A stretch of DNA of 39,909 nt from NCBI GenBank assembly GCA_016872555.1, contig VGZO01000039.1, positions 1-39,909 on the forward strand. Reading direction: 5' to 3'. The DNA is from Planctomycetota bacterium (lineage in GTDB: Bacteria; Planctomycetota; Planctomycetia; Pirellulales; UBA1268). Positions 32,433 to 39,909 of this stretch are shown piece by piece (within the stretch, counting starts at the first letter, position 1; every line of letters begins with the position of its first letter). The translations under genes and the position numbers were made by a program. The notes under the pieces are model-generated. The model had not been told where the DNA came from. It ran no database searches and was given only the letters and a program-made list of their open reading frames with translations.

Positions 32433-33785
32433 TCAGAGCAGTTCCGCCGGGACCCGGCCGCCCGGCACGAGCTGCGTGGGACGGCCAGTGAGGTCGACCA
32501 CGGTGTCCTCGATCGACAGCCCCATCGCGTGGTAGACGATCGCACAGAAGTCCTCGACGCCGATCGCCCGCGAGGTCGGATGCTCGGCCTTGGCGTTGGT
32601 GCTGCCGATCACCTGCCCGTGCCGGTAGCCACCGCCGGCGAGGAGGATGCTCTGGGCCTGCGGCCAGTGGTCGCGGCCGGCGTCCTTGTTGATCACGGGC
32701 GTGTGGCCGAATTCGCCGGCGACGACGACCAGCGTGTCGTCGAGCAGGCCGCGCTCGGCGAGGTCGGCGATCAGCGTGCCCACGGCGCGGTCGTGGCGCG
32801 GGAGCTTGTCCTTGAGCGCCGGGCCGATGTTGCCATGGTCGTCGAAGTAGCCGGTGTTGAGCGAGACGTAGCGGACCCCCGCCTCGACCAGCCGCCGCGC
32901 GAGCAGCGCCTGCTCCCCCCAGCCGGCGCCGTAGCGGTCGCGAACCTCGGCCGGCTCCGCGCCGACATCGAACGCCTTGCGCACCTTGCCGGAGAGCACG
33001 AGGTCCATCGCCTGCTGTTCGACCGAGTCCATCTGGTCGAAGACCCGCTCCTCGTCGACGCGCTGCTTGAGGGCGTCGAGCTGGCCGCGGAGGGCGACCC
33101 GGTCGATGAGCCGCTTCTCGGAAAGACCGTCGGCCAGCGCGAAGCTCTTGGCGTCGCTCGCCGGCAGGCTTCCCGCCTCGTTGCCGTAGCTGAACGACCC
33201 ACACTGGAGCGGGTTGTGGTTGACGCCGAGCCAGGCGGCGCCGTGGAACCCGAAGCCGCCGTCGTTCATGTTGACCGCGGCCAGCGCCCCGGGCAGTTTC
33301 GGACCGAGGAGCCGGCTGGCCACCGCCCCCATCGACGGATAACGCGGCTTGCGGTCGCCGCCTGTCGCGCCGAGCCGGCCGGTGAGCATCCAGTGCGCGG
33401 CCGCCCAGTGATCGGCGTTGCCGTGCGAGAAGCTGCGGATCACCGTGCACTTGTCCATCACCTTGGCGTGCCGCGGCAGCAGCTCGCAGATGTCGAGTCC
33501 CGGCAGGTTGGTGCCGATCGGCTCGAACGGCCCGCGCACCTCGGCCGGAGCCTCGGGCTTCATGTCGAACGTGTCGAGCTGCGACGGGCCGCCGTGCATC
33601 CAGACGAGGATCACCGACCGCTTGCCCTTGATGCCGCCAGGAACACCACCGGAATGCTCGGCACGGAGCAGCGCCGGCAGGCCGAGACCAAACGCCCCCA
33701 GACCGCCGATCTCGATGAACCGCCGGCGGCCGACACGGTCGCAAAAGCCGCCGGCCCCGAGGGCACGCCCACGGATCTGGAGCAT
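32433..33785 (-). CDS. DUF1501 protein, Tat-exported (third copy)
   Basis: A 450-residue protein with ATG at 33785; GGAG lies 9 bases upstream and the frame extends further without a signal. The Tat-like signal has RRRFIEIGGLGAFGLGLPAL with arginines at 20-22. Signatures are VWMHGGPSQLDTFDMKPEAP near residue 62, GEFGHTPVI near 355 and AGRDHWPQAQSILLAGGG near 368. The family belongs to the alkaline phosphatase/sulfatase-like group with unknown substrate. Unlike the first two copies it is not paired with a DUF1549/DUF1553 gene but with a PQQ-type propeller. It has a long leader (about 110 bases) if the TAAACT at 33908 is its promoter. Confidence 0.92.
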   Translation of the reverse strand: MLQIRGRALGAGGFCDRVGRRRFIEIGGLGAFGLGLPALLRAEHSGGVPGGIKGKRSVILVWMHGGPSQLDTFDMKPEAPAEVRGPFEPIGTNLPGLDICELLPRHAKVMDKCTVIRSFSHGNADHWAAAHWMLTGRLGATGGDRKPRYPSMGAVASRLLGPKLPGALAAVNMNDGGFGFHGAAWLGVNHNPLQCGSFSYGNEAGSLPASDAKSFALADGLSEKRLIDRVALRGQLDALKQRVDEERVFDQMDSVEQQAMDLVLSGKVRKAFDVGAEPAEVRDRYGAGWGEQALLARRLVEAGVRYVSLNTGYFDDHGNIGPALKDKLPRHDRAVGTLIADLAERGLLDDTLVVVAGEFGHTPVINKDAGRDHWPQAQSILLAGGGYRHGQVIGSTNAKAEHPTSRAIGVEDFCAIVYHAMGLSIEDTVVDLTGRPTQLVPGGRVPAELL

Positions 33786-33902
33786 CGGAAGGTCTCCGGC
33801 GAGAAGCGGATGGCGGGGGCAACGCCCGCAGGCGAGCACCGTCGGATCGGGGCTGGTGCCGATCGCCCCTCTCGGTTGGGGATCGGCGGACGGGCGGCTA
33901 CA

Positions 33903-34063: not shown

Positions 34064-35473
34064 ATGACTTTTCCCCCCACCAGCCTGTTCCCCGGCCGGC
34101 CCTCGCGGCGCACCGTCCTCCAGGCCTCGGGCGCGGCGCTCGCTGGCCTGACCGGGGTTGGCACGGCCGCTGCGGCGACCGGCCAGGCACGCTCCGCGAT
34201 CCTGTTCTTCCTCTGCGGCGGCTCGTCCCACGTCGACATGTGGGACATGAAGCCGGACGCGCCGTCGGAGTTCCGCGGCGAGTTCCGTCCGATCGCCACC
34301 GGCGCCGACGGCGTCACGATCTGCGAGCACATGCCGCTGCTGGCCCGCGAAGCGAAGCATCTGGCGCTCGTCCACGGCCTCACCGACGGCGGGCAGGCGA
34401 CCGGCGACCACCACGCCGGCTACTACTTCAACCTCACCGGCCACGCCCCTGACCTCACGTTCCGCACGCAGGGCAACGACCGCCGCCCGCAGCCCGACGA
34501 CTGGCCCTCGATCGGCTGCGTCGTCGGTGCCCGGCGCCCGCGCCATCCGTCGCTGCCCCAGACGTTCACGCTCCCCTACCGCCCGAGCAAGCCGCCGTAC
34601 ACCCGTCCCGGCCAGTTCGCCGGCCGGCTCGGCCGCGAACATGATCCGTTCTTCCTCAAGGGGGACTTCGCCGACCCGCTGTCGTTCACCGTGCCCGACC
34701 TCGTCGTCGAGGCCGACGGCATGCGGCGCTTGTCCGACCGGCGCGTGCTCCTCGAGTCGCTCGATTCGCTGCGCCGGGGCCTCGACCACGAGGCGGCGGT
34801 CGGCACCTATTCGCGGCAGCAGCAGCGCACGTTCGAGCTGCTCGCCGCCGCCGGCACGGCCGGCGCCTTCGACATCGGGCGTGAACCGGCCTCCCTGCGC
34901 GAACGCTACGGCCCGACGATCAACGGCACGAGCCTGTTGATGGCCCGGCGGCTCGTCGAAGCCGGCGTGCCGTTCATCACCGTCTTCTGGTCGGAGGAAG
35001 ACGAGGTGGTGTCGAAGAAGTGCGCCAGCGGCGGCGGCTGGGACACTCACGCCGCCAATTTCGCCTGCCTCCGCGACAACCTCCTCCCCGAGTTCGACCG
35101 CGCCTTCTCGGCGCTCGTGGCGGACCTCGCCGACCGCGGGCTGCTCGATTCGACGCTGTTGCTGGTGACCAGCGAGATGGGGCGCAAGCCGCGGATCGGC
35201 GATCCCCGCTCCGGCGGCGTGAAGGGCGCCGGCCGCGACCACTGGACGGCGTGCATGAGCGTGGTCTTCGCCGGCGGCGGGGTGCGGGGCGGCACGGTCC
35301 ACGGCCGCACCGATCCGCGCGGCGAGTACCCCGCCGGCTCGCCGGTGCATCCCGCCGACGTCGCCCGGACCGTGTACGCGGCGCTGGGGATCACCGACCT
35401 CGCCGCGGTCGATCCCCTCGGCCGCCCCTACGATCTCCTCGACGGCGGCGCCGTCCTGCCGATCCTCGGGTGA
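34064..35473 (+). CDS. DUF1501 protein, Tat-exported (fourth copy, single gene)
   Basis: A 469-residue protein whose Tat signal contains SRRTVLQASGAALAGLTG with RR at 15-16. Signatures are FFLCGGSSHVDMWDMKPDAP near residue 47 (serine where the other copies have proline after GG), a cysteine- and acid-rich segment VFWSEEDEVVSKKCASGGGW near 308-327, TSEMGRKP near 367, and AGRDHWTACMSVVFAGGG near 387. The variant N-terminal motif marks a separate DUF1501 subfamily. It is divergent from the third copy and convergent with the DUF2891 gene. It has no DUF1549 partner nearby. The reaction is unknown. Confidence 0.92.
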   Translation: MTFPPTSLFPGRPSRRTVLQASGAALAGLTGVGTAAAATGQARSAILFFLCGGSSHVDMWDMKPDAPSEFRGEFRPIATGADGVTICEHMPLLAREAKHLALVHGLTDGGQATGDHHAGYYFNLTGHAPDLTFRTQGNDRRPQPDDWPSIGCVVGARRPRHPSLPQTFTLPYRPSKPPYTRPGQFAGRLGREHDPFFLKGDFADPLSFTVPDLVVEADGMRRLSDRRVLLESLDSLRRGLDHEAAVGTYSRQQQRTFELLAAAGTAGAFDIGREPASLRERYGPTINGTSLLMARRLVEAGVPFITVFWSEEDEVVSKKCASGGGWDTHAANFACLRDNLLPEFDRAFSALVADLADRGLLDSTLLLVTSEMGRKPRIGDPRSGGVKGAGRDHWTACMSVVFAGGGVRGGTVHGRTDPRGEYPAGSPVHPADVARTVYAALGITDLAAVDPLGRPYDLLDGGAVLPILG

Positions 35474-35491: not shown

Positions 35492-36565
35492 TCAGCGCCC
35501 CCCGGTGAGCAGCAGCGTCGCGAACGACGCCAGCCAGTGCTCGCCGGCGTAGTCGCCGCTGGCGACGTGCGGCAGCGCAGCGGCGGCATGGCGGTCGGCA
35601 GCGTCGGCGAGCGTGCGGCGGAGCGGATCCCCCTCGGGAAACGAGCCGGCGATGTTCCGCATGCACCACGCCCGGCTGAGGTTGAGGCCATCGAGGTGGA
35701 CGATCTGCGGATCGCTGCGGTCGGCGACGGTCGCCGGCGCCATCAGGCTCGGCGGCCCCCCGACGGCCACGTCGGGCAGCGCCCGGGCGAACCAGCGGCG
35801 AAACTCCTCCGCCGGCAGGACGCGCCGCATCAGATCGGCTTCCATCAGGCTCGGCGAAAAGAAGTCGACGCCGTCCGGCTCCCACGCGGCGGGGAGCCGT
35901 TCGTCGCGGCCGAAATACGCGCCGCTCCGCTCGACGACGAGGCGCTGGAGGTCGGCGTGGCCGACGGCCCGCGCGTAGTCGAGGGCGAAGGCGAGGCCGA
36001 ACGCGGTGCTCGAATGGACGCCGCTCCGCGTCGGGTAGGTCTGCTTCGGGTAGTAGGCGAGGTAGCCATTCACGATCACGTCGGCCAGCGGACGCAGGGC
36101 GGCGTTCCATTCCCGCCCCTGCGGATCGTCCCAGTCGTGGACCTCCTCGGCGAGCTTGAGGAGCCAGGCCCAGCCGTAGGGGCGCTCGTACGATTTCGAG
36201 CCGGGCCGGGCGAAGAATGCCGCCTCGGCCTCGAGGTTGGCGGTGGTCAGGTTGGCGGCCAGCGCCGCGCGGATCTCCCCTTCGATCGGCAGCCCCGGGA
36301 CGGTCCGCAGGAGGCGGACGAGCATCCAGTGGCCGTGGACGGCGGAGTGCCAGTCGTAGCAGCCGTAGAACGCGGGATGGACCGAGCGCGGCGGGCGCAC
36401 GTCGCCATCCCCCTCGAGGACGTCGGCCGGCTTGTTGGGATACTCCTTCGCGATCCCCGCCATCGCGAGCCGGGCGAACGCCACGGCCCGGGTCTCGGTG
36501 AGCGGCTCCGCGCGGGCGGCGGGCACGAGGCAGCAGGCGATCACGAACAGGACGACCCAAGCCAT
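35492..36565 (-). CDS. Secreted DUF2891 protein
   Basis: A 357-residue protein. The ATG at 36565 has GAGGAG 6 bases upstream and begins a clear signal peptide (about 1-18, ending ARA-EP); an upstream extension of the frame is not coding-like. The family signature is present near 60-80: VHPAFYGCYDWHSAVHGHWM. Further conserved features are RPYGWAWLLKLAEE near 133 and SGVHSSTAFGLAFALDYAR near 185. DUF2891 proteins are predicted all-helical toroids; I recall no confirmed activity. The conserved histidines, tryptophans and acidic residues suggest a glycoside-type enzyme. It is a single gene, 18 bases from the convergent DUF1501 stop. Confidence 0.88.
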   Translation of the reverse strand: MAWVVLFVIACCLVPAARAEPLTETRAVAFARLAMAGIAKEYPNKPADVLEGDGDVRPPRSVHPAFYGCYDWHSAVHGHWMLVRLLRTVPGLPIEGEIRAALAANLTTANLEAEAAFFARPGSKSYERPYGWAWLLKLAEEVHDWDDPQGREWNAALRPLADVIVNGYLAYYPKQTYPTRSGVHSSTAFGLAFALDYARAVGHADLQRLVVERSGAYFGRDERLPAAWEPDGVDFFSPSLMEADLMRRVLPAEEFRRWFARALPDVAVGGPPSLMAPATVADRSDPQIVHLDGLNLSRAWCMRNIAGSFPEGDPLRRTLADAADRHAAAALPHVASGDYAGEHWLASFATLLLTGGR

Positions 36566-36671: not shown

Positions 36672-39600
36672 TCACCCGCGCACGAGCCGCACGCCGTTGA
36701 CGAGCGTTCCCGGTGCGGGCGTGGCCATCGCGGCCACGCCGCCGACGACGGCGTTGGGACTGCCGAGATAGTTGGCGAAGGCGAACTCGTAGACGCCGCT
36801 TCCGGCATTGGCGGCGGTGATCCGGATCGCACCGATCGTACTCGTGAGGCTCCCCGGCGCGCCGATCGACACGGTCGACGACGTCGTCGCCAACGACCCG
36901 ACCGAGAACGACCCCGACACCGTGCGCAGCTGCCGCAACCCGGCGTCGAGCAGCGTCAGCCGGCCACCGACGAAGAAGTTGCCCACGGTCTCGAGCGACG
37001 AGGCGGCAAGCGTGAGATCCCCGCCGGCCGACACCGACGCGAGTGTGGCGGCCGTGGTCGTGATCCGGACGTCGGCATTGGCCGCACTCGAGCCGACCGA
37101 CAGATCGCCCACGCTGGCGGCCTCGAGCGTCACCCGAGCCACGGCGCCCGTCGGCAGGTTCCAGAGCGTGACCGGGCCGATGCCCGCCGGCGTGCGGAAT
37201 CTGGCGCCGGTGGTGCTCGCGCCGCGGATCATGATCGAGGCGATCGACGGGGTGCCCGCCACCCGCAGCATCACCGGCCCACCGGTGACGATGAACTCCG
37301 CCCCCGATGTCGGGCCGGTGATCGACACCGCCCCGATCGCGGTCACCGCCTCGAAGACCGAGTCGCGAATCGCCAGGCCGGTGCCGGGCGTCGTCGGCGA
37401 GAGCCCGCGGGCGTGGACGACGGTGACGGTGCCGATGCTGCCCGCCAGCGCCGTGAACGTGCTGTTGGCCACCGCGTCGCCGGCGGTGAGGGCGTTGTCG
37501 GCCAGGCGCACGGAGATCGCGCCGAGATTCGCCCCGGTGAACGTGCTGTCGATCACACCGCTGGCGTTGCGCCCCGGCACCCGGACCGTCAGCGCTCCGA
37601 GATTGCCGCGCACGTCGCCGATCCCGCCGAAGTCGGCGTCGGCATCGAACGTCGCGCCGTCGATCCCCGTGCCGATCGAATCCACGGTCACCGCCCCGAT
37701 GCCGGCCAGAGCCTCGAACGAAGAGTTGCGGATACCGGCGGTGTTCGCCGTCGCCCGCGCGGCCCGGCCGGTGTTCACCGTCACCGGCCCGATCGACCCG
37801 GTGAACCGGTTTTGGTCGACGTCGGCCCGCGTCGCGGAGAACGTGCTGTCGACGATGCCGATCCCCGAGGCGCTGGTGACGGCGACCGAGACGATCCTCC
37901 CGGCGGCGCCGGCGAGCACCTTGCTGCCGACGATCCCGCCGAAGCCCGACGCGGCACTGGTCACGGTGACGGCGCCGATCGAGCCGGTGTCGTCGAAGTT
38001 GCCGAGACCGTCGTACATGGCGGTCGTCGCCTCGAACGAGGACCCGGTGATCGCCTCACCTCCTTCGATCGTGACGATCCGGGCAGTCACCGGCCCGATA
38101 CCGGCGCCGGTGAACGTCGAATCCTTGATCCCGACCGAATCGGCCTTCTGGCGGCCGGTATTGATCGCCTCGATGGCGACGAACGAGCCGACGTCGTTGC
38201 CGTCGCTGTCGGCGGTGAACGTCGAGCCGGTCACGGCCGCGCCGCCCCGGCTCGTGGCGAGGATCTTGCCGAACCCGCCGATCGCCGTGAACGTCGAATC
38301 GACGATCCCACGGGCGTCGGTGGCCGTGCCCCCGGCGATCGCGGTGACCGTGCCGAAATTGCCCAGTGGATCGGCGTCCCACGACGACGGATCGGCAGGA
38401 TCGGCGATCCGGCCGAGGGCCGAGAACGTCGCCCCGTCAATCGCCACGCCCCCCTTCTGCGCTTCGGCGCGGATCGGGCCGAACGAGCCGCGCGACGTGA
38501 ACTCGCCCCGCGCGATCGCGGTCTTGGCGAGCGTCGTGACCCGCAGCGCCCCCAGATCACCCGACGCCTGCACCTTGCCGTTGACGATCCCCTCGCCCTC
38601 CGTCGAGCGGACGACGACGTCGAGCGAGGCGATCGGCCCGGCATACGAGCGGATCTCGCCGAAGACGATGCCGCTCCCATCGACCCCGCCATGGACGGTC
38701 GCACGCACCGGACCGATGCCGCTGCCCCCGGCGAGGATCTTGGTGTCGAAGATCGCGTGACGGCCGCCGGCGCTCGCCGACGCGGTCACACGGCCGATGC
38801 CACCGAACTCCAGATCGGTCGCCTGGAACCGGCTCGCATCGATCCCCATGCCGCCCTCGCCCGGACCACCGGCGGCGACGATCGCCCCGATACGGCCGTA
38901 GTGGGAGTCGTAGGAGCCACGTGCGATCCCGGTGCCGCGCAGTTCGGCGACCCCGGAGATCGTACCGATGTCGGAGTGAGCGACGACGGTGACGTTCACG
39001 AGGCCGCCGAGCCAGCCGCGGCCGGAGACAGTGCCGATCAGGCCGGCGCTGCGGTCCGGAACGCCCGATGGATCGAGGACCGTGCGCGTGACGAACGACG
39101 AATTCTCGATCCCCCTGCCTCCCGAGCCGACGCCGAACACCGATCCGATGCCGCCGGCCACCACATTGGCGTCGACGATGCCACCGCCGCCGAGGCTGCC
39201 GAACTGGCCGTACGACACACCGCGGATCTCCGCGACGGTGCCGCCGGCGTCGAGCTTGAGCCCCTTGATCCCGAACCCGGTGTGCGTCCGCCCGACCACC
39301 CGGCCGACGGCGCCCTCGGCCGAGATACTGACGTCGGAAATGCCCAGGCCGGCGATGCTGCCGAACGTCTCGATGTCGCCGATCGAGCCACTGGCGACGA
39401 TCGACGTGGTCTGCAGGGTGCCGTCGACGATCGCGATCCCGGCGATGTCGGTGGCGCGGAAGTAGCAAAGTTCGATCGTGCCGACGCGGGCGTCGATCCG
39501 GCCGAGCGAACCACCGGCGACGATCGACGTGGCGAGCAAGCCGCCGTAGGCCGACACCGGCCCGATGCTGCCGCCCGCCTGGATCGACGGGCTCTCGATG

Positions 39601-39909
39601 AACCCGGCCGACGAGGTGATCGAACCGATCGAACCCGACGTGGCCAGGAGCCCGGCGGTGAGGTTGCCCGCGGCGGTGACGTCGCCGATCGACCCGCCCG
39701 CCTGGATCAGGGCGTCGATCTCCGCCGACACCGACTCGACGTTGCCGACGTTGCGTCCGGCCTGGATGGCCAGCGCCGGCACGCCGGTGGTGCCCCCGCC
39801 GCCGAGGCCGGCGACGGCGCCGAACGCACGCACCCCCGCCACGTCTCGGTGCGCCTTGATGAATCCGGCGAACCCGCCGACGGAGACCGTGACCGCGCCG
39901 ACGTCGCCG
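36672..39909 (-). CDS. Large beta-solenoid-like repetitive exoprotein, C-terminal part
   Basis: The frame is open from the right edge to the stop at 36672, giving 1078 residues; the N-terminus lies outside. The GTG at 39842 is only an internal codon, since the same repeat pattern (GDVGAVTVSVGGFAGF) continues upstream of it. The protein is built almost wholly of glycine-rich repeats that alternate a strand such as SIGPVTV with a motif such as GIVDSTFTA. It is low in cysteine and lysine and rich in G, A, T, S, V and I, as in secreted right-handed beta-helices. The last 200 residues lose the repeat and end ATPAPGTLVNGVRLVRG, perhaps an attachment or export region. No catalytic motif is seen. A cell-surface fibre or adhesin is the likeliest role. 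Confidence 0.8.
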   Translation of the reverse strand, partial: GDVGAVTVSVGGFAGFIKAHRDVAGVRAFGAVAGLGGGGTTGVPALAIQAGRNVGNVESVSAEIDALIQAGGSIGDVTAAGNLTAGLLATSGSIGSITSSAGFIESPSIQAGGSIGPVSAYGGLLATSIVAGGSLGRIDARVGTIELCYFRATDIAGIAIVDGTLQTTSIVASGSIGDIETFGSIAGLGISDVSISAEGAVGRVVGRTHTGFGIKGLKLDAGGTVAEIRGVSYGQFGSLGGGGIVDANVVAGGIGSVFGVGSGGRGIENSSFVTRTVLDPSGVPDRSAGLIGTVSGRGWLGGLVNVTVVAHSDIGTISGVAELRGTGIARGSYDSHYGRIGAIVAAGGPGEGGMGIDASRFQATDLEFGGIGRVTASASAGGRHAIFDTKILAGGSGIGPVRATVHGGVDGSGIVFGEIRSYAGPIASLDVVVRSTEGEGIVNGKVQASGDLGALRVTTLAKTAIARGEFTSRGSFGPIRAEAQKGGVAIDGATFSALGRIADPADPSSWDADPLGNFGTVTAIAGGTATDARGIVDSTFTAIGGFGKILATSRGGAAVTGSTFTADSDGNDVGSFVAIEAINTGRQKADSVGIKDSTFTGAGIGPVTARIVTIEGGEAITGSSFEATTAMYDGLGNFDDTGSIGAVTVTSAASGFGGIVGSKVLAGAAGRIVSVAVTSASGIGIVDSTFSATRADVDQNRFTGSIGPVTVNTGRAARATANTAGIRNSSFEALAGIGAVTVDSIGTGIDGATFDADADFGGIGDVRGNLGALTVRVPGRNASGVIDSTFTGANLGAISVRLADNALTAGDAVANSTFTALAGSIGTVTVVHARGLSPTTPGTGLAIRDSVFEAVTAIGAVSITGPTSGAEFIVTGGPVMLRVAGTPSIASIMIRGASTTGARFRTPAGIGPVTLWNLPTGAVARVTLEAASVGDLSVGSSAANADVRITTTAATLASVSAGGDLTLAASSLETVGNFFVGGRLTLLDAGLRQLRTVSGSFSVGSLATTSSTVSIGAPGSLTSTIGAIRITAANAGSGVYEFAFANYLGSPNAVVGGVAAMATPAPGTLVNGVRLVRG
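37318..39909 (-). repeat. Array of about 18 solenoid coils coded in the exoprotein
   Basis: Protein repeats of the pattern GI-x-x-S-x-F-x-A then IG-x-V-x-V recur about 18 times. Examples are GIVDSTFTA, GIKDSTFTG, AITGSSFEA, GIRNSSFEA and AVANSTFTA, paired with SIGAVTV, GIGAVTV and NLGALTV. Spacing is about 30-50 residues in the middle part and shortens to about 20 near the right edge (AGGSIGDVTAAG, AGGSIGPVSAYG). The DNA copies differ, so this is an old array under protein-level selection. Confidence 0.7.

Follow-up and report, generated by a model that had tools for sequence, protein, structure and literature searches.

A predicted β-helical solenoid protein with a likely export signal and a conserved neighbouring gene in a planctomycete family

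Planctomycetes encode numerous very long exported proteins whose role is unknown. The closest described systems for the gene considered here are the exoproteins bearing the PF07595 (Planc_extracel) motif, which one study (PMC8567305) reports as a planctomycete cell-surface signal, and several groups of secreted β-helical proteins. The gene lies at the end of contig VGZO01000039.1 of a Planctomycetota bacterium (GenBank assembly GCA_016872555.1; Pirellulales; UBA1268), and the window, meaning the whole stretch of DNA analysed (39,909 nucleotides), is that entire contig (C39) within an assembly of 4.47 Mb and 162 contigs. On its minus strand, positions 36,672 to 39,909 hold the 3′ part of a gene for a protein of stacked coils, hereafter the solenoid. 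With the PF07595 exoproteins the solenoid shares a basic N-terminus, an LExRxLLA-type motif near its start and a long repetitive body, although the motif scores below the Pfam cut-off and, in genomes of stated kinship, the β-helix body was found in the host's family only, bar one short match in genome G452. The two-partner secretion (TPS) exoproteins EtpA, HMW1, HxuA and FHA are likewise secreted β-helices whose coils are short and regular (Z 12-18 for fold similarity), but the solenoid has another N-terminal signal, no TpsB-type pore was found in its host, and the similarity is one of fold only (10-14% identity). The passengers of the autotransporters Antigen 43, TibA and Vag8 are also β-helices (Z 13-16), whereas the C-terminus of the solenoid, unlike that of these type Va proteins, consists of short coils and an end piece, with no translocator-barrel family detected (no Pfam match to a C-terminal translocator β-barrel in the window protein or in 11 relatives, two of which are without their C-terminus). 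The solved β-helix 3p4g, a Ca2+-dependent antifreeze protein of an Antarctic bacterium and part of an RTX (repeats-in-toxin) adhesin, resembles the solenoid in the acidic loops repeated along its helix; in the solenoid, however, GGxGxDx is missing, the coils are longer and irregular, and conserved acidic loops occur on alternate coils only. We regard the solenoid as an unstudied, lineage-restricted variant of a broadly known kind of exoprotein. We consider it moderately probable that it is a secreted, surface-located β-helical rod which works with an adjoining exported protein, the pair forming an adhesive or structural surface fibre.

The minus-strand frame comprises 1,078 codons and a stop, and is open up to the window edge at position 39,909. 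The 5′ part of the gene is located on contig C112 of the same assembly (4,098 bp; locus L004, where L labels denote loci and G labels genomes, G000 being the host), at bases 230-1620 with an ATG at base 1620. The final 109 bp of the window (39,801-39,909) overlap exactly with C112 bases 121-229, where the gene continues, and joining the two parts gives a protein of 1,542 residues (window residue n being joined residue n + 464). The join is supported by the genome G001 of the same genus, which carries the same protein in one piece (contig JAGWVR010000099.1; isolate REEB424; 94% identity). The full gene thus bears out the original prediction of more than 1,000 residues extending past the window, but not its description as giant, as a protein of 1,542 residues is long but not of giant size for planctomycetes, where frames of up to 10,757 codons share this type of N-terminus. 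Across the 1,078 window codons the host and G001 copies differ at 49, 29 and 178 first, second and third codon positions, respectively, with a ratio of non-synonymous to synonymous rates (dN/dS) of 0.149. The frame is a real gene under purifying selection, and since both measures mark the minus strand as coding, the 1,159-codon frame on the plus strand is an antisense shadow.

The N-terminus of the protein is encoded outside the window. Joined residues 35-51 hold RLTVDRLEDRRLLAV, following a basic stretch and including the motif RLEDRRLLA. PF07595 matches at these residues, in the N-terminal place expected for it and with its L-E-x-R-x-L-L-A core, and all nine N-termini in alignment A4 contain L-E-x-R-x-[LM]-[LM]-[AT]. 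A predicted N-terminal export signal is therefore likely, as judged from the sequence. Eleven places in the host genome match PF07595 below the cut-off, six of which, including the solenoid gene, show [LF]ExRx[LMP][LMA] after a basic stretch; the read-out of the remaining five did not show this pattern. A profile of the whole protein matched 19 of 396 genomes of the order. Eleven belong to the host's family and contain the body or large parts of the protein, and the eight from outside the family match only the first 124 profile positions, in frames of 178 to 10,757 codons (5/8 longer than 1,542). As the matches outside the family are confined to these positions, the N-terminus appears to be a shared delivery part and the body lineage-specific. 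A much larger candidate exoprotein, a 4,844-codon frame with the export-type motif ESLESRRLLA, is found on contig C5 of the host (L067, around 1637-1666).

From its sequence, the solenoid starts with a basic N-terminus and a first domain, continues through three zones of short, long and again short coils, and finishes in a small end piece. It is rich in glycine, and the joined protein contains 54 [IVLF]Gx[IVLF] motifs compared to a mean of 15.2 in shuffled sequences (maximum 25; 500 shuffles). In joined residues 381-700 a period of about 20 residues is evident (lags 20/40/41/61; z 4.5-5.2; maximum of 300 shuffles 3.9), and the C-terminal part of this short-coil zone (joined 465-700; window 39,201-39,908, minus strand) shows the same period in the window, with most 10-residue blocks of the structural model above 90 in predicted local distance difference test score (pLDDT). 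The long-coil zone (joined 701-1340; 37,281-39,200, minus strand) is built on the core GIxxSxFxA-loop-GxIGxVxV-loop, as read from sequence, motif positions, alignment and model, with 23-45 residues per coil where counted. In joined residues 691-1340 a fixed long period was sought but none stood out from the shuffles (the best, lag 23, had z 2.9; 95% of shuffle maxima, 3.2), because coil length varies. Middle coils start at window residues 493, 538, 562, 597, 623, ~660, 688, 729, 752, 788, 816 and 850 (motif positions minus 464; that at ~660, which lacks the F, was read by eye, and a motif match at 574, being out of register, was disregarded). Of the two repeat lengths originally proposed, that of about 20 residues is therefore borne out, and the longer one is replaced by coils of no fixed period. 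The second short-coil zone (36,864-37,280, minus strand) is recognized from regular strands in the model and corresponds to the N-terminal two thirds of what had been described as a repeat-free tail of some 200 residues. Taken by itself, the autocorrelation of the last 200 residues does not rise above shuffles (best z 2.2), and the model places strands in them starting at 867, 899, 923, 946, 965 and 978, plus one at 1001. The supposed tail thus consists mostly of further short coils, and only its last ~60-90 residues look non-repetitive and appear to form a distinct end piece (36,672-36,863, minus strand; ...YxFAF..YxGxPNA... in alignment A5; block confidence 38-69).

Five acidic loops are conserved in the long-coil zone, all encoded on the minus strand. 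Loop 1 (38,358-38,372) reads DPxGN in most rows of the alignment, with D513 in 12/12; loop 2 (38,196-38,210) reads DSDGN/D, with D567 and D569 in 12/12; loop 3 (37,998-38,015) reads YDGxGN, with D633 in 12/12 and N637 in 11/11; loop 4 (37,809-37,823) reads DxDQN, with D696, D698 and Q699 each in 11/11; and loop 5 (37,632-37,640) reads DxD, with D757 in 10/11 and D759 in 11/11. They follow the coils starting at 493, 562, 623, 688 and 752, with none after the interleaved coils at 538, 597, ~660, 729 and 788. More generally, 30 polar residues are strongly conserved (in 90% or more of the rows, with eight or more rows), and 23 of them are located in predicted loops, against a loop fraction of 0.49.

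AlphaFold2 models the window part as a continuous parallel β-helix (mean pLDDT: 85.0; predicted template modelling score, pTM: 0.74). For residues 1-600 of the L053 copy the mean pLDDT is 79.5 and the pTM 0.75; residues 1-46 fall almost entirely below 50, and from residue 391 onward the block means are 89-97 with a single dip to 55. The solenoid is thus predicted to fold as one continuous parallel β-helix. In a second-look fold comparison (VIA) of the window part, 3p4g came top (Z 19.8; root-mean-square deviation (rmsd) 3.8; 271 aligned; 17% identity), ahead of EtpA (8cpk; Z 17.5; rmsd 4.2; 283 aligned) and RsaA (Z 16.6; rmsd 11.1; 442 aligned). The N-terminal model gave CsgA (Z 16.7; rmsd 8.8), HMW1 (16.5) and EtpA (16.2), with GlmU and LpxD (Z 9.7-9.8; rmsd ~11) and leucine-rich repeats (Z ~5-8) below these leading rows; GlmU and LpxD are left-handed helices, and the leading β-solenoids mostly right-handed. 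These modelled similarities show the class of fold rather than kinship, and families missing from the tables are not thereby excluded. Two other structural matches were set aside: in a viral structure library the only match below 0.001 was a Gaeavirus S74 protein (E 3.0e-4; TM 0.18-0.20), judged not meaningful, and the single solved-chain match of the window protein, a VHH (E 0.23), is ascribed to chance.

The putative partner is encoded on C112, 67 bp upstream of the solenoid gene and on the same strand (C112 1688-3889, minus), in a frame of 733 codons (674 from the first ATG) with an export-type motif of its own, RLESRCLMA. Of the 13 genomes that hold the solenoid gene, 11 have the partner next to it, upstream in G000, G001 and G002 and downstream in G019, G038, G047, G050, G099, G106 and the genomes of L060 and L061. 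Adjacency in the host is by way of the contig join, the contigs of G001, G002 and G047 cut one or both genes, and in G106 the partner and the tail piece that it adjoins are on a second contig. Downstream partners are separated from the solenoid gene by short gaps, depending on the available ATGs (-1 or 11 bp in L054, 2 bp in L055, 42 bp in L056 and L058, 93 or 144 bp in L061), which is consistent with a single transcript. The C-terminal half of the partner (~650-730 amino acids, the starts being uncertain) contains conserved DDGF, EDGLN and DRELFD motifs; with 18.2 bits against TIGR03805 (beta_helix_1; cut-off 141.5) as weak support and no match in the PDB at E 1, this half is probably β-helical too, going by its sequence. 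The partner profile matches 32/72 genomes of the host's family, many only in part, and partner-like halves exist without a solenoid; the partner module therefore draws on a wider pool. As further observations on this gene pair, genome G010 encodes a divergent homologue (contig C78, L028, 4320-9812, plus strand) whose C-terminus looks Ig-like in our own reading, and the middle part of the partner matches this other C-terminal region weakly (E 4.5e-10). Contig C83 of G050 (L029, 1-2706, minus strand) carries a paralogue.

The profile of the end piece matches eight of the 72 family genomes once each, in every case on the solenoid gene (on a separate contig in G106), as well as the genomes of L060 and L061 once each, and the partner is present in all ten of these genomes. 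In relatives outside the genus a lysine-rich C-terminal extension is attached to the end piece (alignment A5). The suggestion that the tail is a general sorting signal, shared with other exoproteins of the genome, is rejected: no second copy of the last 202 residues was found in the host genome at E 10, and in the 72 family genomes the end piece was found on this gene only.

Length differences between relatives are concentrated in the short-coil zones. Within the long-coil zone, where covered, the ten relatives other than L063 have no insertion or deletion of at least 15 residues, with changes of 10-13 residues at 276 and 571, and from residue 380 on every length change of at least 15 residues in them is confined to a short-coil zone or to the extreme C-terminus. 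In one alignment the short-coil zone has lost 152 residues from 448 in L062, 92 from 463 in L056, L058 and L060, and 21 plus 56 in L063; these sizes depend on the alignment, a second one, within the window part, giving 130, 68 and 56. At window residue 986 an additional 18 residues are present in L055, L059, L060 and L061 and 37 in L056 and L058, approximating one and two short coils. Extra residues thus occur in six of the eight relatives that reach this position with the same tail, and L053 and L054 are without an insertion of at least ten; the count leaves out L057 and L062, which end earlier, and L063, which has 16 extra residues and another C-terminus. A further length difference is evident in the host assembly itself. 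Window positions 39,222-39,344 are identical to C112 bases 1-123, so that C112 joins this stretch directly to 39,801-39,909 and skips 459 bp (153 codons) in frame, placing joined residue ~500 immediately before ~653 inside the short-coil zone. The junction lies between two near-repeats (22/26 bases alike), where an allele and an assembly error would both stay in frame, and the G001 copy has full length at this position. It may be a length allele or an assembly error.

The solenoid gene was found in 11 of the 72 genomes of the host's family. Across 294 genomes of the phylum, host included, one other genome (G452) gave a single short match (profile positions 376-501; E 7.1e-5), and a scan of named genomes returned 11 loci, all titled metagenome-assembled genomes, nine of which match host-family genomes by contig. 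Among the searched genomes of stated kinship, which do not include those of L060 and L061, the body was thus found only in the host's family, the G452 match apart. Four of the 11 locus records (L055, L056, L060 and L061) are titled Candidatus Kuenenia stuttgartiensis, and as the contigs L055 and L056 belong to genomes assigned here to the host's family, their titles are taken as naming errors. Several of the source sites, read from isolate codes, are presumably lakes. Judged by titles and abstract openings, none of the papers returned by literature searches was recognized as describing the solenoid protein.

On the reading that we prefer, the N-terminal motif would send the solenoid out of the cytoplasm, after which it would form a stiff rod standing on the cell surface or close to it. 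As a β-helix usually rises 0.48 nm per coil, the very roughly 50 coils would extend for ~24 nm. Acidic loops stacked two coils apart would bind Ca2+ and stiffen the rod, the short-coil zones would serve as stalk segments of adjustable length, and the end piece would interact with the neighbouring exported protein. Surface location, Ca2+ binding, contact with the partner and an adhesive or structural role are all steps that we infer. The earlier proposal of a stalk, fibre or adhesin on the planctomycete surface, with a predicted β-helix, an export-like N-terminal motif, no catalytic family found and relatives in the Planctomycetota, remains the best guess for the function of the solenoid. Several results weigh against this interpretation. 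PF07595 scores 14.6 bits when run on the protein and 19.1 bits when run on the genome, with a gathering cut-off of 25.5 bits that neither value reaches, and the genome scan gave sub-cut-off matches in 5/14 control genomes. Foldseek returned no PDB match under E 0.001 for either model. The RTX motif GGxGxDx(hydrophobic) is absent from the joined protein, and Ca2+ binding by the loops is proposed from their composition alone. With only 11/72 family genomes holding the gene, the solenoid is not a core surface part. In G037 the contig ends before the solenoid gene does and a strong partner was not found elsewhere in the genome, while the solenoid of G010 has a different C-terminus and no adjacent partner; as the latter genome has the gene with neither this tail nor an adjoining partner, the pair is not obligatory.

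An enzymatic role would fit the same fold, and the solenoid could be a polysaccharide-active enzyme or offer a carbohydrate-binding groove (of lyase, polygalacturonase or tailspike type) for algal or bacterial polysaccharide. The HK620 tailspike heads the Foldseek list, if non-significantly (E 0.21), tailspikes, PL6 lyases and GH28 enzymes appear among the second-look rows without being specific (Z 12-15), and some charged residues are invariant (R434, D451 and E615). The β-helix is, however, common to many non-enzymes, and the conserved polar residues, most of them in loops, are spread along the sequence instead of forming a single sequence cluster. In agreement with the original prediction, which recognized neither an enzyme motif nor the family, Pfam and NCBIfam hold no family that matches the window part at E 1, enzyme-bearing β-helix families included, and Pfam identifies no enzyme family in the 11 relatives. 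We regard a catalytic or sugar-binding function as distinctly unlikely. A non-adhesive component of a surface coat, akin to an S-layer, or a released matrix protein is unlikely as well, although the S-layer protein RsaA is among the closest folds (if only at its large rmsd), the lysine-rich C-termini of relatives outside the genus can be read in this way, and no anchor family was found (Pfam and NCBIfam for the window part, Pfam for the 11 relatives). A coat enclosing the cell would not usually be expected to show so patchy a presence as the solenoid gene does.

Secretion as a TpsA-like TPS exoprotein, served by the adjacent gene, is suggested by the alignment of residues 318-600 of the N-terminal model with TPS domains, those of HMW1 (rmsd 3.3; 230 aligned) and EtpA (rmsd 3.1; 223 aligned) at the Z scores given above, and of HxuA and FHA at Z 12.5 and 12.4, as well as by the very existence of a conserved neighbour. 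The aligned part is, however, β-helix deep inside the protein rather than its N-terminus, the NPN[LG] motif is absent from the joined protein, and Pfam shows no TPS family in the N-terminal part or in the 11 relatives. A scan of the host genome (97.9% complete) for ShlB (PF03865) at E 1 gave no match, a search of modest power given that 4/14 controls matched and none over the cut-off. The four scanned members of the neighbour, moreover, gave no pore-type Pfam match, and an exported-type N-terminal motif of its own is present in each copy read out. These features make a TPS system highly improbable. The solenoid bears on how such proteins get outside without a recognized two-partner or autotransporter route. 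With its definable anatomy, likely export signal, conserved partner and natural length differences, it also provides a tractable test of length-tuned surface fibres. In a more specific form of the fibre interpretation, which we advance tentatively and consider rather unlikely in its entirety, it would be a lineage-restricted two-protein fibre, its length tuned as short coils are gained or lost at two fixed zones, with a stiffening calcium ladder on alternate coils of an otherwise constant middle, capped or anchored through its end piece by a second, co-encoded β-helix protein, and with the 459-bp junction as a length polymorphism within the source population.

Other genes are located beyond the solenoid gene in the window. 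A DUF2891 gene occupies 35,492-36,565 on the minus strand (the longer frame, which begins at 36,832, matches in Pfam at E 2.9e-135), and its ATG at 36,565, 106 bp past the solenoid gene stop, opens a signal-peptide-like N-terminus. A DUF1501 protein (Pfam) is encoded at 34,064-35,473 on the plus strand, and a frame on the other strand at 32,433-33,839 resembles its family; the product of each of these two frames shares 36% identity with the counterpart of the other in the same-genus genome.

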